The position numbers and the translations under genes were made by a program. From Pseudomonadota bacterium (GTDB lineage: Bacteria > Desulfobacterota > Desulfovibrionia > Desulfovibrionales > Desulfovibrionaceae): DNA of 64,000 bases. The stretch is from positions 1-64,000 of the forward strand of contig JAHIUW010000007.1 of NCBI GenBank assembly GCA_018816865.1, in the 5' to 3' direction. Of the stretch, positions 38,567-44,132 are shown piece by piece (the stretch's first letter is position 1; every line of letters starts with the position of its first letter). The notes under the pieces were generated by a model. It made no database searches. It was not told the DNA's origin and saw nothing but the letters and a program-made list of their open reading frames with translations.

Positions 38567-38687
38567 GCTAGTCCGGATGCAAGGCGCAAAAAGAATTCAA
38601 GATCGACGGCCTGTAGCCGAATCGGCGAGAGTTTGAATTCATTGCGGCAACGAAGCAGACGGGCCGTCATGGGCAAGAGGTGGCTAG
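38567..38687 (+). repeat. Structured palindromic repeat, copy C
   Basis: Shares GTCCGGATGCAAGGCGCAA with the left part of copy B (GTCGGATACTAGGCGCAA). Inner stem GAATTCAA (38593-38600) pairs with TTGAATTC (38633-38640); the central hairpin is CGGC-CTGTA-GCCG between GATCGA and GAGAG; the right block is GCGGCAACG. A possible outer pair CTAGTCC / GGCTAG includes the ispDF stop codon at 38684. Confidence 0.75.
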
Positions 38688-39865
38688 GCGGAGCGCGTGG
38701 CCGTGACGCAGGCCACGGCCTTGATCCCCTTTTTCTGCCCGGTGAAGCCCAGGCCCTCTTCCGTGGTCGCCTTGACGTTGACCTGGCGGTCTTCCAGTTG
38801 CAGCAGGCGAGCCACCGTGGACTTGATCTGCGCCTTGTGGGGAGCCAGCTTGGGCGTTTGGCAGATCAGCGTCAGGTCGACATGGGTGATGACCAGACCG
38901 TCCTGGTCGGCCAGGAGCAGGACCTCGTTGACCAGGATGGACGATTCGATGCCCGCATAGGCCGCGTCCGTATCTGGGAAGTGCTCGCCGATGTCACCCC
39001 GGCCAAGACAGCCCAGCAGGGCGTCGACCAGGGCGTGCAGCAGCACGTCGCCGTCGGAGTGGGCCACGATTTCGGGCCCGCCCGCGATGGGCACGCCGCC
39101 CAGGACCATGGGGTGCCCAGGGCCGTATTTATGGACATCATACCCCCAGCCTGTGACCGCAACGCTCGGGGCTTGCTTTGGGGTGAGCATCTTCAGGTCC
39201 TCCGGGGTGGTGATTTTTACATTATCTTCTTCGCCCGGGACGATGGCGACCTCGCCGCCCATGGTCTCGACCATGGAGGCGTCGTCGGTCACGGAGACGT
39301 GGCCCTCCTGGCAGAAGGCGTGGGCTGTGCGCAGGGTGGCCAAATCAAAGGCCTGCGGGGTCTGCACCGCGCACAGTTCGGCGCGAGGCAGGGTCTGCGC
39401 CACGGTCGTGCCGAGGACGCGCTTGATGGTGTCCTTGACGGGCAAGGCAGGGATGACGGCCTTGGCCCCGCCCTTCAGGGCGTCGATGAGCGCATTGCAT
39501 AACTGTGGCGAAGCGAACGGCCGGGCCGAATCGTGCACCAGGACATGATCGCAGTCGCCGGGCAACAGCGCGAGGCCGTTGAAGACCGAGTCCTGGCGGC
39601 GCGCACCACCCGCGGCGAAGCGGCAGGGCAGGTTCAGGGGCCGTCCGTCCAGCAGGTCTGCGGTTCTGGCCTTGGCCTCTTGCAATTCATCGGGCGGGAA
39701 GACGAACACCAGCCCGGAGATCCGGGCCACACGGGCCAGGGTCTGGGCTCCGTGCCAGAACAGGGGCAAGCCCTCCAGTTCCAGGAACTGCTTTTTGGTC
39801 TTCAGCCCGGCTTGTGCCAGGCGTGAGCCGCTGCCCGCGGCCAGGATGATCGCCCAACAGGTCAT
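38684..39865 (-). CDS. ispDF: Bifunctional IspD-IspF (MEP pathway)
   Basis: Fuses two isoprenoid-precursor enzymes. IspD (about 1-225) is 2-C-methylerythritol-4-phosphate cytidylyltransferase, with WAIILAAGSGSRLA and VHDSARPF. IspF (about 233-393) is the cyclodiphosphate synthase, with GYDVHKYGPG, GGVPIAGGPEIVAHSDGD and GDIGEHFPDTD, the metal His-Asp set. The IspE step between them is encoded elsewhere. Fused IspDF proteins occur in alpha and epsilon proteobacteria and some delta-lineage bacteria; here no frameshift separates the parts. Its stop lies at the border of repeat C. Confidence 0.95.
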   Translation of the reverse strand: MTCWAIILAAGSGSRLAQAGLKTKKQFLELEGLPLFWHGAQTLARVARISGLVFVFPPDELQEAKARTADLLDGRPLNLPCRFAAGGARRQDSVFNGLALLPGDCDHVLVHDSARPFASPQLCNALIDALKGGAKAVIPALPVKDTIKRVLGTTVAQTLPRAELCAVQTPQAFDLATLRTAHAFCQEGHVSVTDDASMVETMGGEVAIVPGEEDNVKITTPEDLKMLTPKQAPSVAVTGWGYDVHKYGPGHPMVLGGVPIAGGPEIVAHSDGDVLLHALVDALLGCLGRGDIGEHFPDTDAAYAGIESSILVNEVLLLADQDGLVITHVDLTLICQTPKLAPHKAQIKSTVARLLQLEDRQVNVKATTEEGLGFTGQKKGIKAVACVTATRSA

Positions 39866-40410: not shown

Positions 40411-41271
40411 CTACTTGTCACCGGAATCGTCAATTGCGACATCTTCGATATCTTCAGCGGCCTCGGCCGCCTCGGCGGATTTCAGCTCGGCAGCTTCCCT
40501 GGCCTTGCCCTCGCTGGTGAAGGCTTTTTCCTCACCGCTGAAGTGTTCGCACCAGTAGCTCAGGCGCTGGCAGTTGGGGCAGCTGATGATCTGTTCGCCT
40601 TTTTGCAGATCGTTGAAGATCTGGGGCGGAATCAGGATATGGCAGCCGGAACACACGCCATCGATCACGGACACGATCACGGGATTGGAGATGCGCGCAC
40701 GGATGAACTCGTAGCGGCCAAGCACGGGCTTGGGCACAACGGAACAGGCCTTGTCGCGTTGCTTACCCAGAATGGTCAGACGCTTTTTGGCTGCGGCCGT
40801 GCGCTTCTTGATGCTCGTCTTGTATGTCTCAAGGGTCTCCTTGAGTTCCTTGGCCTGGGCTTCAACCTCGGCGCTCAGATCCTTCTGGCGCTCCAGCTCC
40901 TCGGTCAGGGCGATGCGCTCTTCTTCCCGGGTGCGGTTGAGCTTTTCCATGTTGTCCATCTCGCGCATCATGGCATGATACTCGCGAGTGTTCTCGGCCA
41001 TCATCAGCTTGCTTTTGCTCTTCTTGATCTTGGACGCATTGTCCTCGACCTCGTCGTTGAGACGCTTTTGCTGAGTCTTGAGGATATCAAGCTTGTCGGC
41101 CAGAAGCTCGAGACGGTGGTCGAAATCATCGTTCTGGCTCTCCAGATCGGCCAGTTCCTTGGGCAGGTTTTCAAGTTCCTGTTCCAGGACGATGATCTCG
41201 TCATCGACCTTTTGCAGGACCACAAGCTGCTCGATCTGTTCAAGGTACATGCTCAACGGGTTATCCTCCAT
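40411..41271 (-). CDS. Coiled-coil protein with C4 zinc ribbon (CT398 type)
   Basis: About 286 residues. The N-terminal two thirds (about 10-175) is an uninterrupted heptad-rich coiled coil. Then comes a C4 zinc ribbon CSGCHILIPP...ISCPNCQRLSYW (about 205-235), followed by an acidic Ala/Glu tail. This is the architecture of the CT398/FlxA-like family found next to Nif3 and rnpB in many bacteria. The start is uncertain: GGAGG lies 8 bases before a TTG at 41256, while the ATG at 41271 is the nearest conventional choice. Suggested roles in DNA or RNA handling are unproven. Confidence 0.85.
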   Translation of the reverse strand: MEDNPLSMYLEQIEQLVVLQKVDDEIIVLEQELENLPKELADLESQNDDFDHRLELLADKLDILKTQQKRLNDEVEDNASKIKKSKSKLMMAENTREYHAMMREMDNMEKLNRTREEERIALTEELERQKDLSAEVEAQAKELKETLETYKTSIKKRTAAAKKRLTILGKQRDKACSVVPKPVLGRYEFIRARISNPVIVSVIDGVCSGCHILIPPQIFNDLQKGEQIISCPNCQRLSYWCEHFSGEEKAFTSEGKAREAAELKSAEAAEAAEDIEDVAIDDSGDK

Positions 41272-41320
41272 GGTCTGCCCTGTCATGCGGCCCGGTGAGG
41301 GGCCGTGCGGGGCGGTTCTT

Positions 41321-42115
41321 CTAGATACGAATAGGCAGGTGGGCCTTGAAAGGCTCCCTGCCGGGTAAAAACCGTACTTTAACGCCCTCGGGGCCGAGTT
41401 TATCCGCCAAGAGGTCCGCTAACTCACTGGACATGCGGTCTTCCAGAGAGAAATGACCCACGTCCACCGTGAATTGGGGGGACTCGAGGGCCTGATGATA
41501 TTTCAGGTCGCCAGTGATGTACACGTCCGTTTCAGCGGCGTGGGCCGCATCCATCAGGGAACCGCCTGAACCGGTGCAATAGGCGACGGTGGACACGGTC
41601 GTCGGCGGTGTGCCTGAAAGGGTCCAAAAATCTCTGTTCACATGTTGGCCCAAACGCAGGGCGAAATCCTTCCAGGGCAAGGGCGCGGGCAAGCGTCCCC
41701 AAAATCCGTAACCCACTCCCGGTTCGGACGCGGTATTGGGTTCGAGCACGGTGAGCTCGCTGAGCTTCATGGCGCGGAACAACCAGCCCGCAGGACCTTC
41801 GGGGCGGACGTCCAGGCTGGTGTGCGCACTGTAGAGCCACGTGCCGGTCGCCATGATCGCCCGTGTACTGTCCAGGAAATAGCTGGGCTTGTTGAGCGGC
41901 TTGGGCTCCAAATACAACGGATGGTGGGTCACGATCATCTCCGCACCCCATTCCAGGGCCGCGACCACCTCTTCCGGCGATGGATCAATGGTCACCACAA
42001 GCCGGGTGACCTCATCCTCCAATCCGGCGATCTGAACGCCGCAGTTGTCCCACTGTGCCGCTCCGGACAAGGGCGCGATCCGTTCGATGCAGGAGATGAT
42101 TTTTGCGACGTGCAT
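41321..42115 (-). CDS. Nif3-like dinuclear metal-centre protein
   Basis: A 264-residue Nif3/YbgI-type protein that forms a toroidal hexamer with a two-metal site. Metal ligands are visible in VTHHPLYLEP (two His) and the C-terminal VGHFSLEDRMSSELADLL (His and Glu). GGAG lies five bases before the ATG. The family is linked to GTP cyclohydrolase-like folds but its reaction remains unsettled. It is the first gene of a unit with the coiled-coil zinc-ribbon protein and RNase P RNA. Confidence 0.93.
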   Translation of the reverse strand: MHVAKIISCIERIAPLSGAAQWDNCGVQIAGLEDEVTRLVVTIDPSPEEVVAALEWGAEMIVTHHPLYLEPKPLNKPSYFLDSTRAIMATGTWLYSAHTSLDVRPEGPAGWLFRAMKLSELTVLEPNTASEPGVGYGFWGRLPAPLPWKDFALRLGQHVNRDFWTLSGTPPTTVSTVAYCTGSGGSLMDAAHAAETDVYITGDLKYHQALESPQFTVDVGHFSLEDRMSSELADLLADKLGPEGVKVRFLPGREPFKAHLPIRI

Positions 42116-42245: not shown

Positions 42246-42321
42246 TGGTAGGCCGGGTAGGATTTGAACCTACACCAGTTCGGTTATGAGCCGAAGGCTC
42301 TGCCAATTGAGCTACCGGCCC
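42246..42321 (-). tRNA. tRNA-Met (CAT), elongator type
   Basis: Seventy-six bases on the minus strand fold as a cloverleaf: acceptor GGGCCGG with CCGGCCT (first pair G-U), D stem GCTC/GAGC, anticodon stem TTCGG/CCGAA with loop CTCATAA (anticodon CAT), T arm GTAGG-TTCAAAT-CCTAC, and encoded CCA. The G1-U72 pairing and anticodon stem argue against initiator tRNA. A tRNA-Ile2 needing lysidine is the other CAT option, but the CGGCTCATAACCG arm is closest to elongator Met. Confidence 0.94.
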
Positions 42322-42491: not shown

Positions 42492-43397
42492 CTAGGCCTT
42501 GTCTTTGGGGCACTTGTCCTTGACATACTTGATGGCTTGACGGGCGGCGATGGAACCTTCCCCGACGGCAACGCCGATCTGCAGGAAGCGGCCCACGCAG
42601 TCCCCTGCGGCGTAGATGCCAGGCAGGTTGGTTTCCTGCTTCTCGTTGGCCACGAGGTAGTGCCCGTTGCGCTCCAGGCCCAGGGTATAGGCGAAGTCCG
42701 TGGATCCGGCCTCGCCCAGGGCGATGAACAGGCCCTCGGTGTCGAAGGTCTCGCCGTCCTCGAACCTGACGCGATCCAGACCGTTCGCACCTTCCAGGGT
42801 TTCGATCTTCTTTTCGATGACGGGGATACCCGCCGCGTCCAGCTTGGCCCGCATCTCGTCGCCGAACTCGGGCTTTTTGCCCTGGGTGCACAGGGCGACC
42901 TTGTCGGTGTAGGAGGTCAGTTCCAGGGCCTGGTTGGCGGCGTAGACGCCTTCGCCCAGGGCCACGACCTGGCGGCCGCGGTAGAAGAACCCGTCGCAGG
43001 ACACGCAGTGGGACACGCCCTTGCCGTCGTAATCATCCTCGTTCTTGATGCCGGAGCGGGTCTTGGACACGCCGGCGGCGATGATGATGGCGCAGGCCTT
43101 GATGTGTCCGGACTCGGTCTTGACCTTGTAGGTCATGTCTTCTTCCATGTGGATGGTCAGCACCCGTTCGGTCTCGATGCGGGTCCCGAAGCGCAGGGCC
43201 TGCTTGCGCCCAGCCTCCATCAAGTCGGAGGCCTGGATGGTGTTCTCGAAGCCGAAGTAGTTGTCGATGGCGTAGTCACCGTCGATTTTCGGCTTCAGGC
43301 CGACGACCACGGTGTCGATCCCTGCGCGGGAGGCGTAGATGGCGGCGGACAGGCCCGCGGGACCTTGACCAATGATCATGAGCTGGACTTCTTGCAT
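42492..43397 (-). CDS. Thioredoxin-reductase-like flavoprotein with altered pyridine site
   Basis: A 301-residue FAD enzyme with the TrxB layout. The FAD-binding loop IGQGPAGLSAAIYASRAG lies at 9-26, the redox disulfide CVSC at 131-134 (E. coli has CATC), and the FAD site GIYAAGDCVGRF near the end. The NADPH-binding domain keeps a GxGxxA core (GEGVYAA, 148-154), but the adjacent HRRxxxR motif that grips the 2'-phosphate is replaced by CTQGKKP (170-176). It may therefore use NADH, ferredoxin or another donor. The ATG has GAGGAG six bases upstream. It lies 48 bases downstream of the queuosine transporter gene, so it may share that transcript. Confidence 0.88.
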   Translation of the reverse strand: MQEVQLMIIGQGPAGLSAAIYASRAGIDTVVVGLKPKIDGDYAIDNYFGFENTIQASDLMEAGRKQALRFGTRIETERVLTIHMEEDMTYKVKTESGHIKACAIIIAAGVSKTRSGIKNEDDYDGKGVSHCVSCDGFFYRGRQVVALGEGVYAANQALELTSYTDKVALCTQGKKPEFGDEMRAKLDAAGIPVIEKKIETLEGANGLDRVRFEDGETFDTEGLFIALGEAGSTDFAYTLGLERNGHYLVANEKQETNLPGIYAAGDCVGRFLQIGVAVGEGSIAARQAIKYVKDKCPKDKA

Positions 43398-43445: not shown

Positions 43446-44132
43446 TTAGACCGCTGCCCTTTCCCGGGACACCACTCGCTTGGCGAGATAGATGAACGGG
43501 GTATCCAGGGCAGCGACGATGGCCTTGAAGAGGTATGTCGTAATCAATATTTCAATAAAGACTGGTGTCTCGAACACTCCCCAGAAAGCAATAAGGCAGA
43601 AGATCACCGAGTCAAGCAATTGGCTGACCAGGGTGCTCAGGTTGTTGCGCAGCCAGAGCTTGCCCTCGCCGGTGCGTTTTTTCCAAAAATGGTAGGCCCA
43701 GACGTCGTGCATCTGGGAGATCAGATACGCCGCCAGGCTCGCCAGGGCCAGTCGCGGCAACATCCCGAAGATGGCCTCCAGATGCGGCTGGACAAAGTCG
43801 TCGGCACTGGGGGTGAACAGCAGAGCGATCTGCATGTACACCGTGGCCATGACCAGCACCGCGAACCCCAGCAGAACCCCCTTTTTCGCGGCATCCTTGC
43901 CGTAAAACTCCCCGAGCAGGTCCGTGGCCAGAAAGACGCTGGCGTAGAGCACGTTGCCCAGGGTTGTGGTCAGCCCGAACAGCTCGATGGTCTTCAGGAC
44001 TTGGATGTTGCACAGCAGCAGGTTGAAGACGATGAGCCCGTACAGGGCCGGTTTGCCAAAGAGCCGGAACAGCACCACGACCAGGGACAGGTCGAGCACA
44101 GCAAATGCAAGCCAAAGCAATTCGTTCGTCAT
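43446..44132 (-). CDS. Queuosine-precursor transporter (VUT/YhhQ family)
   Basis: A 228-residue membrane protein with about six spans; the family imports 7-deazaguanine precursors such as preQ0/preQ1. Family features include an early NLLLCNIQVLKTIELFG, TDLLGEFYGKDAAKKG and WAYHFWKKRTG with flanking charged residues, then DSVIFCLIAFWG. It has GGAG nine bases before the ATG and a structured leader. Whether queuosine synthesis genes exist in this genome cannot be seen here. Confidence 0.9.
   Translation of the reverse strand: MTNELLWLAFAVLDLSLVVVLFRLFGKPALYGLIVFNLLLCNIQVLKTIELFGLTTTLGNVLYASVFLATDLLGEFYGKDAAKKGVLLGFAVLVMATVYMQIALLFTPSADDFVQPHLEAIFGMLPRLALASLAAYLISQMHDVWAYHFWKKRTGEGKLWLRNNLSTLVSQLLDSVIFCLIAFWGVFETPVFIEILITTYLFKAIVAALDTPFIYLAKRVVSRERAAV

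Follow-up and report, generated by a model that had tools for sequence, protein, structure and literature searches.

Gene content of the locus

The window (the whole 64,000-nucleotide stretch that was analyzed) codes on its minus strand, at positions 42492-43397, for a 301-aa protein that Pfam and NCBIfam assign to the pyridine nucleotide-disulfide oxidoreductases, with TIGR01292 as the best NCBIfam match (216.8 bits; cut-off 343.45). A prior sequence-only reading of this DNA had described the disulfide motif and both FAD motifs as intact, and we locate these as CVSC at residues 131-134, GQGPAG at 10-15, and AAGDC at 263-267, respectively. The thioredoxin-contact residues of TRi (G[R/K]G ahead of the CxxC and Phe behind it) are also present, viz., G125-K126-G127 and F137/F138. 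The replacement of the HRRxxxR motif by CTQGKKP, likewise pointed out in that reading, is found exactly at residues 170-176 (T171, Q172, G173, K174). The claim that the GxGxxA loop is kept was right for G148, G150, and A153; however, the complete element reads GEGxxAxN (148-155) as against the GGGxxAxE of canonical TrxB, with E149 in its second position and N155 where a glutamate is usual.

Upstream, on the same strand and ending 48 bases before the reductase start, lies a gene for a putative vitamin uptake transporter of the Vut_1 family (43446..44132, minus strand; Pfam PF02592, 187.8 bits). Immediately downstream is a tRNA-Met (CAT; 42246..42321), followed by genes coding for a DUF34/NIF3 family protein (41321..42115; PF01784, 204 bits) and a CT398-like coiled coil protein with a C4 zinc ribbon (40411..41286; PF02591, PF24481), all three again on the minus strand. 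Further out, a single ORF at 38684-39865 combines IspD and IspF (YgbB) domains by Pfam and accordingly codes for a bifunctional enzyme. No redox gene was found beside the reductase among the window neighbors scanned by Pfam, and we know of no redox link for DUF34/NIF3. The tRNA-Met recurs downstream of the orthologous genes in 25 of the 30 loci scanned (L003-L029 and the window), which cover several families of the order, and two of the five misses are at loci ending at a contig end. Vut_1 is upstream in 4/30 loci, that of the window included; this is the only count that we use from the neighbor clustering, because its clusters mix read-through and antisense ORFs. Based on the clustering, the tRNA scan, and the Pfam matches in the window, we rejected a redox operon partner for the reductase. 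The gene is also isolated from that of thioredoxin: trxA is on this contig as well, but at a distance of about 39 kb.

Relationship to the atypical thioredoxin reductase TRi

The best solved relative of the window protein is 5NII (380 bits; next PDB match 138.7 bits), which its PDB title gives as TRi, an atypical thioredoxin reductase from Desulfovibrio vulgaris Hildenborough (henceforth DvTRi). The two are identical in 173 of 293 residues aligned end to end (59%), and a TRi profile run against the PDB chains recovers 5NII with 503 bits and the best other chain with 202 bits. An AlphaFold2 model of the window protein (mean pLDDT 79.9, pTM 0.64; weak around the CxxC, with pLDDT <50 at 131-137) likewise has 5NII as its best match in structure comparison (Z 36.0, rmsd 4.0 over 295) and at rank 1 in Foldseek. 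In a tree of 37 chosen rows, one of which (L110) is long-branched, the protein falls within a TRi clade (support 100/98) together with its congener and DvTRi, rather than inside canonical TrxB, a placement that the sequence-only reading had named as speaking against its proposal. This tree is without sequences of the ferredoxin-dependent flavin thioredoxin reductases (FFTRs), since 6GNA and 5J60/6XTF were absent from the alignments listed in the PDB searches. A topology in which TRi and the NADPH enzymes (NTR) are constrained as a single clade is rejected (p-AU 0.0016). The window protein and DvTRi are further alike in their CVSC, TQGK, and GEGxxAxN motifs, in fold, and in having no adjacent thioredoxin gene. 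TRi members are marked by TQ/NGK in place of HRRD at the 2'-phosphate site, and the 2017 study describes the TQGK motif in DvTRi itself (Valette et al., 2017; PMC5627308). Taken together, these comparisons indicate that the window protein is very probably the ortholog of DvTRi, i.e., a low-Mr flavoprotein thioredoxin reductase that, like its ortholog, would function independently of NAD(P)H. As TRi was described in 2017, the gene is a further member of a described family, within which it is otherwise ordinary.

The overall fold, the CxxC, and the FAD motifs are held in common with canonical TR1/TrxB, and the score of 216.8 bits to TIGR01292 is what could be cited for a locally altered canonical NADPH-dependent TrxB or for a decaying gene. 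That score is below the cut-off of 343, which is weak evidence by itself because relatives have several bona fide HRR enzymes that narrowly miss the cut-off as well. However, both HRRxxxR and GGGxxAxE are replaced, the protein is 92% identical to its counterpart in the congener and is conserved across the order, and the TRi clade is separate from NADPH TrxB in the tree. We hence regard the probability of this alternative as negligible, and a canonical TrxB identity is ruled out by the TIGR01292 score, the motif columns, and the tree in combination.

Conservation and phyletic spread of TRi

TRi orthologs with at least 51% identity are present in 32/59 genomes searched, including that of the window. 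Thirty of these 32 genomes, again with our own, yielded a locus, and with the addition of 5NII they form an alignment of 31 rows, in which columns 171-174 contain T in 26, Q in 27, G in 30, and K in 29 rows, while E149 and N155 are kept in 31/31. At columns 171-173, nine comparison TrxB sequences (two of them of the fusion type described below) show H, R, and R in nine of nine each. A single-protein query gave no relative among named genomes, and 62 loci were obtained by an alignment-based contig scan; after six partial or broken loci were dropped and three far relatives kept, 56 of these plus our own gave 57 rows with T in 51, Q in 41, G in 54, and K in 52 at columns 171-174. The TQGK replacement is conserved and not a product of chance or drift.

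By title, the 62 loci are mostly from Desulfovibrionales, with nine carrying a Spirochaete and one a Bacillota title (L061, L080, L088, L089, L098, L099, L101, L103, L104, and L091). These latter TRi sequences show 49-58% identity and are all marked as coming from MAGs; contamination is possible. In the tree, four Spirochaete rows form one branch with modest support (94/78) and the Bacillota row is placed among the Desulfovibrionales. In a scan of nine loci with Spirochaete or Bacillota titles, no tRNA-Met was found downstream of TRi. The range published in 2017 comprised Deltaproteobacteria and Clostridia (PMC5627308); the Spirochaete- and Bacillota-titled MAG loci would extend it, contamination being possible. 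More distant relatives, 34-41% identical to the window protein, come from two archaeal MAGs and one clostridial MAG, and group with TRi (99/94) outside the TRi clade proper.

Probable NAD(P)H independence and candidate electron donors

The biochemistry of the ortholog, as set out in the study that also solved its crystal structure, is that neither NADPH nor NADH reduces DvTRi, with up to 1 mM of either tried (the 1 mM result being given there as 'data not shown'), that benzyl viologen activity was not detected, and that the artificially reduced enzyme reduces Trx1 and forms mixed disulfides with it (PMC5627308). Since its ortholog is not reduced by NADPH, the window protein has presumably lost the use of this cofactor. 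The sequence-only reading had taken the loss of HRRxxxR to signify a non-NADPH reductase in an anaerobe, which agrees with the published results for DvTRi (PMC5627308), although the TRi family went unrecognized. Its suggestion of NADH as donor is contradicted by the same DvTRi data, on which we rejected NADH use (PMC5627308). Residual weak binding or use of NADH or NADPH in this lineage might be argued from the retained Rossmann-like loop and the one lysine (K174), but the failure of up to 1 mM of either nucleotide to reduce the ortholog (PMC5627308) and the conservation, as opposed to drift, of TQGK across the TRi rows make it very unlikely. F420, also entertained in the sequence-only reading, is argued against for DvTRi (PMC5627308). 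In our own genome the best scores to CofH (TIGR03551) are 321 and 303 bits against a cut-off of 374, so related proteins do exist there; F420 is disfavored by the published arguments together with these sub-cut-off scores, the CofH result alone not being decisive.

Valette et al. did not find the donor of DvTRi; of the candidates, they ruled out F420, doubted ferredoxin on the sequence-based argument that the TRi pocket is unlike that of the clostridial ferredoxin enzyme, and proposed flavodoxin (PMC5627308). A strong short-flavodoxin match (at least 120 bits) accompanies TRi in 11/32 genomes, which is in line with the flavodoxin proposal; however, 21/32 TRi genomes, including our own, are without one, and the TRi-lacking genomes are similar (6/27 with a match), with no association between the two (Fisher p 0.39). 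These counts are to be read with the caveat that many of 20 other genomes have weak matches in 167-241-aa frames and that divergent flavodoxins can be missed. A free flavodoxin was not found in our own genome with two flavodoxin models, one of them PF00258, the only match of either being in a 405-aa frame of the size of a flavodiiron protein (an identity assigned by size only). This pattern of co-occurrence speaks against flavodoxin as the general donor of TRi, and we consider it improbable that it reduces the enzyme here.

We counted the evidence against flavodoxin in favor of ferredoxin, and a low-potential ferredoxin is our preferred donor, which we would hold at about even chances. FFTRs are low-Mr flavin thioredoxin reductases that do not use NADPH. 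Against the model of the window protein, the ferredoxin-flavin reductases of C. acetobutylicum give rmsd values of 6.3 Å over 278 (6GNA), 6.1 over 276 (6GND), and 8.7 over 283 residues (6GNC), and the donor-bound Gloeobacter reductase 6XTF (also 5J60), whose donor we take to be ferredoxin, gives 9.0 over 289, whereas NADPH enzymes aligned at full length mostly give 14-16. The predicted domain arrangement would thus be nearer to that of the FFTRs than to that of the NADPH enzymes; yet this is a hint only, given that the Z-scores overlap (25.1-26.3 for the FFTRs, with 6GNA at 26.3, vs 24.2-26.0 for the listed NADPH enzymes) and that the model, whose one predicted domain arrangement underlies the comparison, is weak around the CxxC. 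By profile score, TRi comes out no nearer to the FFTRs than to the NADPH enzymes, the TRi profile scoring 149 bits to 6GNA, 156 to 5J60, and 133.5 to 5N0J and higher to many NADPH enzymes. The pseudo-NADPH domain aligns over 110/117 residues with Gloeobacter 5N0J, which we take to be the DTR (Gll2934), with TLGA opposite TQGK. Gloeobacter DTR is distant at full length (the 133.5 bits above) and is reported as not using NADPH in the 2017 account (PMC5627308).

Alternatively, TRi might be fed by another small redox partner, such as a different iron-sulfur carrier or a dithiol protein. The 2017 work did not arrive at a donor (PMC5627308), and the pseudo-NADPH domain is conserved in its own fashion, which suggests that it may bind a specific partner. 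However, no redox gene recurs next to TRi, where the recurrent element is the tRNA-Met (25/30), and the neighbors in the window are non-redox by Pfam, the neighbor clustering being coarse; a small CxxC protein does lie beside the L110 reductase (34% identical to the window protein), but L110 is outside the TRi clade. We accordingly give this alternative some credence but consider it somewhat unlikely, and retain low-potential ferredoxin as the preferred donor. Among the titles and abstract beginnings listed in searches of open literature, we found no later paper naming the TRi donor, which is no proof that none exists. As a separate observation, the small L110 protein (L110:2614-2856, with the motif TTPTCIWCK) is encoded directly downstream of the L110 reductase, a distant relative of TRi from a clostridial MAG, and is a possible partner of that reductase.

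trxA without an adjacent trxB in the genus

Our own genome encodes a Trx1-like protein with WCGPC. In both genomes of the genus that were examined (L116 = G000:C20 and L117 = G001:C1), trxA is followed by a bamD-like gene, with trxB missing between them; the names bamD and tsaD are given to genes at the trxA loci from their sequences. The search for trxA covered 18/35 family genomes, namely the two of the genus, 15 with a close copy (76-83% identical), and one (G024) with none. A trxB starts 11-39 bases past the trxA match in 15/15 of these other genomes with trxA, and 14 of these are complete (303-311 aa) with HRR, the one from G014 being cut by the contig end. The only TIGR01292 matches above 60 bits in each of the two genomes of the genus are TRi and one HRR TrxB. 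The genus seems to have lost the trxB beside trxA and to have retained TRi.

This HRR TrxB carries a fused glutaredoxin-like domain; the active site of the latter is T-TGA-PYC in our own genome vs T-TGT-PYC in the congener, with the TGA codon (T*PYC) at L002:2695-2697 on the minus strand (L002 = G000:C9). The genome has selB, with a score above the model cut-off. No SECIS element was recognized at the fusion locus, where Rfam gave four matches far below the gathering scores, and folding stability does not clearly set the hairpin that follows the TGA apart from shuffled sequences (z -0.70; 45/200 shuffles at least as stable); these two results count against, or fail to support, a selenocysteine reading. 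A UxxC selenocysteine form of a homolog of the AhpF N-terminal, i.e., glutaredoxin-like, domain is nevertheless a listed selenoprotein family (PMC13188914, PMC1794560). From this listing, we predict that the fusion protein is a probable selenoprotein related to that family, here in a fused form.

It could be that TRi and the selenocysteine glutaredoxin-like/TrxB fusion together carry all Trx1 reduction in the genus and that its thioredoxin pool is largely fed by ferredoxin and not by NADPH, but we consider this rather doubtful. If true, an anaerobe lineage would have handed general thiol control to an enzyme of the TRi type. The genus would not be the first such case, given that three clostridia with TRi and without TR1 are named in the 2017 report, which postulated general thiol control by TRi for them (PMC5627308).

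Proposed mechanism and role

We propose that a donor distinct from NAD(P)H would pass electrons to the FAD of a homodimeric TRi, that the reduced flavin would in turn reduce the Cys131-Cys134 disulfide, and that the resulting dithiol (by homology via Cys134) would reduce Trx1, as suggested by orthology and the conserved residues. For DvTRi, the steps from FAD to Trx1 were demonstrated with an artificial reductant in the 2017 report (PMC5627308). With ferredoxin as donor, the pathway would tie thiol repair to the oxidation of pyruvate or hydrogen. The same study reports that a tri deletion mutant of D. vulgaris is more sensitive to diamide, pointing to protection from disulfide stress by TRi, that growth without added oxidant is not significantly affected by the deletion, and that air induces DvTRi about 11-fold (PMC5627308). 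By analogy to the ortholog, the role of TRi in the window organism is probably to supply extra reducing power to Trx1 under oxidative stress. However, D. vulgaris has TR1 and TR3 besides TRi, unlike the genus of the window, which is without a trxB beside trxA and in which TRi possibly handles more of the routine reduction of Trx1. What is of interest here is the missing trxB of the genus and the question of the TRi donor: the genus offers a useful natural case in which trxA and TRi are kept while a trxB beside trxA and a free flavodoxin were not found, which narrows the donor question, and it could show the extent to which TRi supports Trx1.

A second family of HRR-less reductases

A second HRR-less reductase occurs in 8/59 genomes, all eight being among the 27 that lack TRi; the probability of this non-overlap by chance is 0.001 on the assumption of independent genomes, an assumption that does not hold here. 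Its members have the active site CVEC or CVDC (CV[ED]C) and a GPPLQMAKAVGEG-like end (L146-L153), are 53-72% identical to each other and 32-36% to the window protein, and form their own clade in the tree (100/99). One of them scores 162.4 bits to 5NII and to 2A87 alike. By eye, the neighbors of genes of this family include multiheme cytochrome-like proteins (L148, L150) and a [NiFe]-hydrogenase large subunit-like protein (L152).
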